A stretch of 64,000 nt of DNA from an uncultured Dehalococcoidia bacterium. GTDB taxonomy: Bacteria > Chloroflexota > Dehalococcoidia > Lucifugimonadales > UBA1123. The notes beneath the pieces were generated by a model. It saw only the letters and a list, made by a program, of their open reading frames with translations. It was not told where the DNA came from and did no database searches. Position 1 is the first letter of the stretch. Each line of letters starts with the position of its first letter. The translations under genes were made by a program, and so were the position numbers. Below, in pieces: positions 4,571-35,313 of this stretch. The stretch spans positions 806,001 through 870,000 of the forward strand of contig CATOSI010000002.1 of assembly GCA_951812505.1 (NCBI GenBank), in the 5' to 3' direction.

Positions 4571-5113
4571 ATGACAACCGATATTCCGCACGAAGTGCAT
4601 GGCGATGAACTTCCTCAGAAAGGGACACGACGCACCATCTCGGTAGATTGCGAGCACGTCGAGAAGATGCTCCACAAGAGCGCTCGCGAGCAGTTCGTGA
4701 TCTACTGCGACGAGCCGGAGAGGATGGGCGGAGAGAACGCCTATCCCGCGCCACTAACGTATATCACGTCCGGTATCGGGTTTTGACTGCTTACGCAGTT
4801 GAAGCGGTACGCTACAATGAGAAAACTTACGATCAAGAAGGCGCGCGTTCACGTCGAGATGGACTACTACCTGTCTGGCTCGGTGCTGGCGGGAACCGTC
4901 AACAGTGGGGTTACCGAGGTACGTTCCGAGTTCGATGTGTCCTCGGACGAACCGGAAGAGGACATAGCCTACGTCATCAGGCTGGCGAAGCAGGGATGTT
5001 TTGCCGAGAGGCTGGTGGAAACGGCCGTGCCCATCAAGAGCACGCTAATACTGAACGGCAAAGAGGCGACGGACCGCTTTCTGCCAGAAACTGATGCAGG
5101 GGATGACTCATGA
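4571..5113 (+). CDS. OsmC-family peroxiredoxin-like selenoprotein (in-frame TGA = Sec72)
   Basis: One 180-residue OsmC-family protein encoded in a single frame that standard gene callers would split in two. Codon 72 is TGA (4784-4786); the frame is otherwise open from ATG 4571 to TGA 5111-5113. Residues before it (NAYPAPLTYITSGIGF) match the loop and helix start that carry the peroxidatic Cys in OsmC/Ohr, and the TGA falls at that Cys. The sequence after it (LLTQLKRYATMRKL) continues the buried helix. The partner Cys is kept at about residue 143 (AKQGCFAERL), so a Sec72-Cys143 pair would replace the usual Cys-Cys pair. A SECIS-like hairpin sits directly after the TGA. OsmC/Ohr proteins reduce organic hydroperoxides or act as thiol-redox proteins in the cytoplasm. 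The stop overlaps the next start (ATGA). The alternative is a nonsense mutation, but both halves keep intact coding. Confidence 0.85.
4799..4817 (+). promoter_or_regulatory. Candidate bacterial SECIS element of the OsmC-like gene
   Basis: TTG, A, AGC, loop GGTAC, GCT, A, CAA folds as a short stem (TTG/CAA, A-A mismatch, AGC/GCT). The loop begins GGU, 19 bases after the TGA. The E. coli fdhF SECIS has its GGUC loop 18 bases after its UGA, so position and loop sequence both fit SelB recognition. A competing 5-base hairpin (ACTGC/GCAGT) overlaps the TGA itself. Confidence 0.65.
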
Positions 5114-5994
5114 CCACGACCACTGTCGGCGCAGAAAAACTTACCTTCGAGCTTGTCCAGGACTTTCCAAAACTTCCCGACGGGGAGACATTTGATATAG
5201 TCAGCACCGTCGCTACCGATTCGCAGGATAGGGTATATGTCTTCCAGAGGAAGGACCCTCCGGTGGTCGTCTTCGATAGCGACGGCAATTACCTGGACGC
5301 CTGGGGGCACGGCGCGTTCAACTCGCCGCACGGCATGAGCATCAGCGACGACGTGATCTACATGACCGACCGCGACGATTCAGTCGCGGTGGCATATACA
5401 CTGGAAGGCAGGCCGCTGCTGGTGCTGGGAGAGCGCGGCGTTCATTCCGACACGGGCTGCGAGGCGCCCGCGGACATGGTCCCCCGCGCCGCCGGGCCGT
5501 TCAACTATCCCACCGAGATGGTGAAGGGGCCGTCGGGCCATATCTACGTTTCGGACGGGTATCGGAACAGCAGGATTCACAAGTTCACTGAACAGGGTGA
5601 GCTCGTCAGGTCATGGGGAACGCCCGGAAGTTCGGAACCTGGTGAATTTCACCTGCCTCACAGCCTGATGGTGGATGGGGAAGAGAAGGTTTACGTGTGC
5701 GACCGCAGCAATCGGCGAATCCAGATATTCGACGGTGACGGCGAGTTCATCGCGATGTGGACCGGCATGGGCGGACCGAACGACATAGTGCAGGGACAGG
5801 ACGGTCTCTTCTACATCTGCGAGCAGGAGGCGGACGGCAATCCGCCGCGTGTCACCATCCGTGACGGCGACGGCGAGGTACTGGCGCGCTGGGATGTGCG
5901 CCACGCCCACGGTATCTGGGTTGACTCAGGCGGAGATGTCTATCTCGGCCTGACGACCAGCCAGAGCGTGGACAAGTATGTGCGGGTTCGCTAG
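5110..5994 (+). CDS. NHL-repeat six-bladed beta-propeller protein
   Basis: A 294-residue protein made of NHL-type blades: DSQDRVYVFQR, GHIYVSDGYRNSRIHKFTEQG and EKVYVCDRSNRRIQIFDGDG, ending in a closing blade. Its overall plan resembles the propeller of peptidyl-hydroxyglycine alpha-amidating lyase and related lactonase-like bacterial proteins. No signal peptide is seen, so it is probably cytoplasmic. Its ATG overlaps the TGA stop of the OsmC-like selenoprotein by four bases, so the two are translationally coupled. A RidA-like gene follows in the same direction. No catalytic assignment is possible from the sequence alone. Confidence 0.85.
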   Translation: MTTTTVGAEKLTFELVQDFPKLPDGETFDIVSTVATDSQDRVYVFQRKDPPVVVFDSDGNYLDAWGHGAFNSPHGMSISDDVIYMTDRDDSVAVAYTLEGRPLLVLGERGVHSDTGCEAPADMVPRAAGPFNYPTEMVKGPSGHIYVSDGYRNSRIHKFTEQGELVRSWGTPGSSEPGEFHLPHSLMVDGEEKVYVCDRSNRRIQIFDGDGEFIAMWTGMGGPNDIVQGQDGLFYICEQEADGNPPRVTIRDGDGEVLARWDVRHAHGIWVDSGGDVYLGLTTSQSVDKYVRVR

Positions 5995-6046
5995 TGTCGG
6001 TGACGAGAATTTTCAACACAGCCTAAAGATTAACTTTCGGGAGGAA

Positions 6047-6718
6047 ATGAGCGTGAGCAAGTTCTATGATGAGGCGCTGCTGCCGGACGAGATGCGTCGC
6101 GACTTCGATGTGTACGACAGGATCCGGGAGCTCGGTGTCGAATTAGGCAGCTTCGGCGAGGATGTGGTGTCGCTGGAGGGCGCGGGCATAGCGGGGGCGG
6201 TTGTGCATGAGAGCGGCCTTGTGTATCTGTCTGGCACCGGGGCAGGGACTTATCCTATGAATGACGATGAAGAGCGTATCCAGCACGGCTTTCAGGCAGC
6301 GCAGGAAGCGGCTGACGTGTTGATTCGCAGGCTGCACTGGACGCTGAGTTGCGGCGGCGAAGGCGATCTGAACGACGTGCTTTACACGGTGAAGGCGCTG
6401 GGCATGGTGGTCTCGCCGGGCGGTGGCGCGAGTGGAGCGGCTCCCTCGGTTACGAACGGCTTCTCGTTCAGGTGGCACTCGGTTTTCGGTGGTCCTCGGA
6501 GTGACTATGCCGAGGGCGGTGTTGACCAGGGCGGATTTGCCGGAATCCATGCGAGGAGCGCGGTGGGCGGGTTCGACGGTAAGTTCTCCATCGAGCCGGA
6601 GATCATCGTAGCGGTCCCGGCTCCGCTTACGCAGCAGATAATCGCGAACAGGGGCTGGGTTTTCCCTCTGCCGCCCGTGATGCTGGAGAAGGTGAGGTCT
6701 GCAAGGGACGGGAATTGA
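6047..6718 (+). CDS. RidA (YjgF/YER057c) family protein, enlarged
   Basis: About 223 residues, longer than the usual 125-150 of RidA. VYLSGTGAGTYP, AQEAADVLIRRL, DLNDVLYTVKALGMVVSP and the closing strand SIEPEIIVAVPAP follow the RidA fold, which forms trimers and deaminates reactive enamine/imine intermediates. A middle segment (about 135-190) is longer than in typical members. Two starts compete: ATG 6047 lies only 2 bases after GGGAGG, while GTG 6053 has the better 8-base spacing. I give the ATG. It follows the NHL gene after a 52-base gap and probably belongs to the same operon. The specific substrate is unknown. Confidence 0.78.
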   Translation: MSVSKFYDEALLPDEMRRDFDVYDRIRELGVELGSFGEDVVSLEGAGIAGAVVHESGLVYLSGTGAGTYPMNDDEERIQHGFQAAQEAADVLIRRLHWTLSCGGEGDLNDVLYTVKALGMVVSPGGGASGAAPSVTNGFSFRWHSVFGGPRSDYAEGGVDQGGFAGIHARSAVGGFDGKFSIEPEIIVAVPAPLTQQIIANRGWVFPLPPVMLEKVRSARDGN

Positions 6719-34961: not shown

Positions 34962-35313
34962 TGGTGGAGACGGGGGAGGGTCGAACTCCCCGTCCAGAAG
35001 ACTCTCCGACCAAGACATCTACAAGCTTAGCCGATGCTTAAGGTCACCCCGGCGCCTCCGCACCGGCAGGGACGGCGCTCAGGGCTAGCCGATGGTCTTT
35101 TGTCCCGGGCATCGGCGTCGCCGGAACAGCATCCCGATTTTCGGCGCCTCGTCGGCCCCTACGGGAGTCGGAACCGGGAGACGTAGCCGGTATTAAGCGG
35201 CTAGTGCGTACTGATTGTCGTCAGGTACTTTCTTTGCCACCTGATTAACGAGGTTGATGGCGCCTCGGCTTGCAGTCCCGCGAAGGCATCCCCTGTCGAA
35301 CCCACGCGTCCCC
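34962..35313 (-). ncRNA. ssrA: Transfer-messenger RNA (tmRNA, ssrA)
   Basis: A one-piece tmRNA of about 352 bases. The 5' end GGGGACG pairs with CGTCTCC before the 3' ACCA, forming the acceptor stem with one G-U pair. GTGGGTTCGACAGGGG is the typical 5' domain, and the T-arm is GGGTCGAACTCCCC on the plus strand. The tag frame (35237 down to 35193) reads AKKVPDDNQYALAA then TAA; the ALAA end is recognised by ClpXP-type proteases. tmRNA with SmpB rescues ribosomes stalled on broken messages. CCA is encoded. Confidence 0.96.

Follow-up and report, generated by a model that had tools for sequence, protein, structure and literature searches.

The window analysed here, a 64,000-nucleotide stretch of a Dehalococcoidia contig (CATOSI010000002.1), carries an OsmC-like gene at 4571..5113 on the plus strand. 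Read from the ATG at 4571 to the terminal stop TGA at 5111-5113, the gene forms one open frame containing a single TGA at 4784-4786 (codon 72), and its predicted product has 180 aa with selenocysteine (Sec) at residue 72. A sequence-only reading of this DNA had proposed the same frame with the same lone TGA, and ORF reading bore it out. The read-through product matched the Pfam OsmC family (PF02566) over residues 54-156 (E 4e-13; 50.1 bits against a gathering score of 27.5), placing it in the OsmC superfamily, and passed the NCBIfam model NF041052, 'OsmC-related (seleno)protein', with 164.4 bits against a curated cut-off of 95, while the Ohr equivalog model NF052637 was not passed (12.9 bits against a cut-off of 240). 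The earlier expectation that standard annotation breaks the gene is outdated for NCBI's models, as NF041052 recognises the protein and annotation need not split it. Directly downstream, the ATG of an NHL-repeat beta-propeller gene (5110..5994, plus strand) overlaps the OsmC stop (ATGA), and the two genes are likely cotranscribed. The NHL-repeat gene also lies directly downstream of OsmC in one relative (L028, 85% identity), and the next gene, at 5978-6718, is likewise found close to OsmC in L025 (92% identity) and L028 (86%). The product of 5978-6718 is a conserved protein for which no Pfam or NCBIfam match was obtained; by eye only, it appears RidA-like.

The in-frame TGA opens a UxxT motif (ULLT, residues 72-75) and is shared widely. 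In 13 close relatives from SAR202, Dehalococcoidia and other Chloroflexota (57-88% identity), TGA occurred at the same aligned column, as it did in 25 further Chloroflexota loci, and it was common to relatives down to about 25-30% identity. Across the 44 aligned rows, which include the window's own copy twice, the codon-72 column held U in 40 and C in 4, and T75 of the motif was kept in 39. One of the loci listed with TGA (L062, genome G376) aligned as Cys (GSCLAT) at the catalytic site and was counted as Cys. Every aligned relative thus had TGA or Cys at codon 72, and the proposal that the TGA occupies the OsmC catalytic position was supported both by these Cys rows and by the Pfam OsmC match. 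The second reactive position of the superfamily was also present, at Cys143 (codon 4997..4999, plus strand), which was conserved in 43/44 aligned rows and invariant in 20/20; the retention of this Cys, noted before, was confirmed, and the residue is a candidate for the resolving role that had been ascribed to it.

Codon comparisons further agreed with the earlier statement that coding is intact on either side of the TGA. Differences from four relatives (L025-L027 and L029) fell mostly at third positions in both parts of the gene, with counts at the three codon positions of 5/3/28 before and 6/4/32 after the TGA relative to L025. Both halves evolve as coding sequence, and the third-position bias on both sides speaks against a dead gene. 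A Cys version (L052) was placed among the Sec forms in the tree, although the surrounding branches are weak, and likely represents a loss of Sec to Cys. A SAR202 relative (L037, QGNN01000021.1, 3153-3494) has lost four codons in frame a short way past the UGA, and with them part of the downstream hairpin; its upstream part is out of frame as well. The gene may be decaying, or the sequence may be misassembled.

A SECIS-type hairpin was located at 4799..4817 on the plus strand, consisting of an inner stem (4803-4806/4810-4813) closed by the loop GUA (4807-4809) and an outer stem (4799-4801/4815-4817, UUG/CAA) set off from the inner stem by an A-A mismatch. The stem-loop, with its small G-containing loop, therefore stands directly downstream of the UGA, the inner stem beginning after a spacing of 16 bases. 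The sequence-only reading had described a hairpin 19 bases after the TGA with a GGU loop. The hairpin itself stood, and its GGU does follow the UGA after 19 bases, but the loop assignment did not hold, as G4806 closes the stem and the loop proper is GUA. The stem in the window is short (four pairs, the A-A mismatch and three pairs), and when only the window was considered, a stem of at least four pairs arose in 9% of synonymous shuffles, a modest result short of significance. Across relatives the result was different: a stem of at least four pairs in the same register, allowing for a loop of either 3 or 5 bases centred on the same point and for a half-base slip, was present in 35/38 TGA genes, compared with 3.4 ± 1.8 expected and a maximum of 10 in 2000 shuffles that permuted synonymous codons and left the proteins unchanged. 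The remaining 3/38 were without a clean stem in this register. The shuffle test over relatives rules out the hairpin as a chance by-product of the coding sequence.

Compensatory changes were also evident among the 38 TGA genes, in which the first hairpin pair was GC in 24 and AT in 9, the second was CG in 25 and AT in 9, and the fourth was seen as AT, TA, GC and CG, while the first loop base was G in 37. L052, a Cys version, no longer has the hairpin (loop TTT, stem of 2). The search for a bacterial SECIS element that had been suggested for this locus thus returned a conserved and covarying hairpin, whose support comes from conservation across relatives, not from the window sequence alone. When the stretch 4780-4845 (66 nt) was folded as a whole, the most stable fold was a different hairpin, which takes in the UGA and part of the SECIS stem, whereas folding that starts downstream of the UGA, as with a ribosome standing on it, gave the SECIS hairpin. 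Around the UGA, an 11-base-pair hairpin at 4780-4805, partly found in near relatives, competes with the SECIS stem.

Genes for Sec synthesis and insertion were sought in the genome holding the window (3.8 Mb in six contigs, with a contamination estimate of 8.7%). Matches were obtained for selA (545 bits), selB (341 bits) and selD (387 bits), together with a tRNA-Sec gene (selC; 66 bits, over the gathering score) with the anticodon UCA as assigned by ARAGORN, so that the full set selA, selB, selC and selD is present and the check for sel genes in the same genome came out positive. With this set, the organism is equipped, as judged from its gene content, to insert Sec. The selD gene (L020:1267-2535) likewise contains a TGA in frame, within CAGU, the position at which Sec is known from SelD active sites, and is likely itself a selenoprotein gene. 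Given the contamination estimate, the sel genes could in principle derive from a mixed bin, yet dozens of genomes show the same pattern. Of the surveyed genomes, the 28 whose best match is of the TGA type all had selA (above the cut-off in 27, as a fragment in G342), and Cys was present in the one homologue examined from a genome lacking a selA match of any kind (L064, G185). However, selA was also found in 22/29 surveyed genomes without the TGA form, and the co-occurrence is therefore what Sec decoding requires but no independent proof of it.

The structure predicted from a 20-row alignment (pLDDT 84) had the OsmC/Ohr fold, and OsmC/Ohr structures matched the model at Z 12-15, the best solved ones being 1lql (Z 15.3) and 2onf (Z 14.8). 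Residue 72 sits in the central helix 61-83 of the model, and the Cys of 3cje aligned exactly to residue 72 in a phmmer alignment. The fold, the Sec position and the conserved second Cys together suggest a thiol-type redox cycle. In the proposed mechanism, SelB loaded with Sec-tRNA(UCA) would bind the hairpin just downstream of the UGA at 4784-4786 and insert Sec at residue 72, the place of the OsmC peroxidatic Cys in the central helix. The selenolate of Sec72 might then attack a peroxide, a similar electrophile or a disulfide, after which Cys143 would close a selenenylsulfide with Sec72, and a cellular thiol system could reduce this Sec72-Cys143 bond.

Two readings without Sec were weighed against this interpretation. 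A lone stop in an otherwise intact frame resembles a fresh nonsense mutation, and the TGA might accordingly be a true stop, created by mutation or by sequencing error, in a decaying or broken OsmC gene that gives fragments only. This is vanishingly improbable, as relatives with as little as about 25-30% identity still keep the TGA, coding constraint persists in both halves and the downstream hairpin covaries; conservation of the TGA across many genera rules out both a nonsense mutation and a sequencing error. Next to no probability is likewise given to a general recoding, as in code 4, by which UGA would be read as an amino acid other than Sec. The frame would be equally open under such a code, but TGA still serves as a stop here, for example at the end of the OsmC-like gene where it overlaps the next gene, the remaining homologues have Cys at the site, and the genome holds selA, selB, selD and tRNA-Sec; the use of TGA as a stop and the Sec machinery rule such recoding out. 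The OsmC-like gene thus almost certainly encodes a selenoprotein, with predicted Sec72 read from the UGA at 4784-4786.

The reaction of this selenoprotein is less certain than its Sec. It had been proposed to be a Sec-dependent hydroperoxide or thiol reductase, of which the Sec part held up, while the substrate is conjectural. That the UxxT OsmC-like group acts not on peroxides but on disulfides, sulfur compounds or other electrophiles is a possibility of real weight, if short of an even chance: the match to the Ohr equivalog is insignificant, a 2022 review (PMC9312934) assigns the group to COG1765 (YhfA) instead of Ohr, and no assay of a group member appears in the available portions of the published accounts. 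On the other hand, a peroxide reductase would fit the OsmC/Ohr fold and the placement of the reactive residue and of the second Cys at the family positions.

OsmC-like selenoproteins with a UxxT motif have been known since 2005, and the earlier reading had mentioned that OsmC-like selenoproteins are reported from metagenomes. Three UxxT sequences were described from Sargasso Sea data in 2005 (PMC1088965) and five from GOS data in 2008 (PMC2398784), and OsmC-like selenoproteins are listed by reviews of 2022 and 2026 (PMC9312934, PMC13188914). The published proteins have the same OsmC domain, Sec in UxxT and a downstream SECIS-type hairpin with a G in the apical loop, and nothing essential differs between them (PMC1088965, PMC2398784, NF041052) and the present gene. 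Since ULLT fits the published UxxT motif and NF041052 was passed, the gene belongs to this known family and is a further member of it. Unlike the published cases, the present copy comes with a source lineage (SAR202/Dehalococcoidia-type Chloroflexota) and a full sel set. A text search, in which literature coverage was incomplete, found no paper naming SAR202 together with a selenoprotein. The general picture of selenoproteins is unchanged by this gene. To a metagenomic family known for 20 years, it contributes a lineage of origin, the whole sel set and a SECIS element tested by covariation, together with numerous members on which function could be studied.

In comparison with the OsmC and Ohr organic hydroperoxide reductases, the fold and the two reactive positions are the same, whereas those enzymes have Cys in place of Sec, are only weakly similar in sequence (10-20% identity in structural alignments); the present protein does not pass the Ohr model. 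An E. coli plasmid OsmC family protein (WP_024946712.1), with 34% identity over residues 42-167, has the CxxT motif CMLT at the same place, with Cys instead of Sec; its gene lies at 1270-1902 of a conjugative plasmid record (L070, NZ_OW967967.1), with IS21-type genes on either side. A broader view would make the UxxT OsmC-like selenoproteins one large Chloroflexota group that was ancestrally Sec-containing, has occasionally lost Sec to Cys and catalyses another reaction than Ohr/OsmC, perhaps together with the neighbouring beta-propeller and the conserved uncharacterised protein; this view is speculative and rather unlikely to hold in full.

A rough scan for genes with an in-frame TGA across the window returned 23 places, among which the OsmC-like gene alone looked convincing. 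Elsewhere in the same genome lies a second OsmC-family gene (L069, C3:649140-649523), whose reactive residue is a normal Cys (GSCM). An Rfam search of the window gave nothing beyond a tmRNA gene, which lies at 34962-35313 on the minus strand and carries the tag DDNQYALAA.
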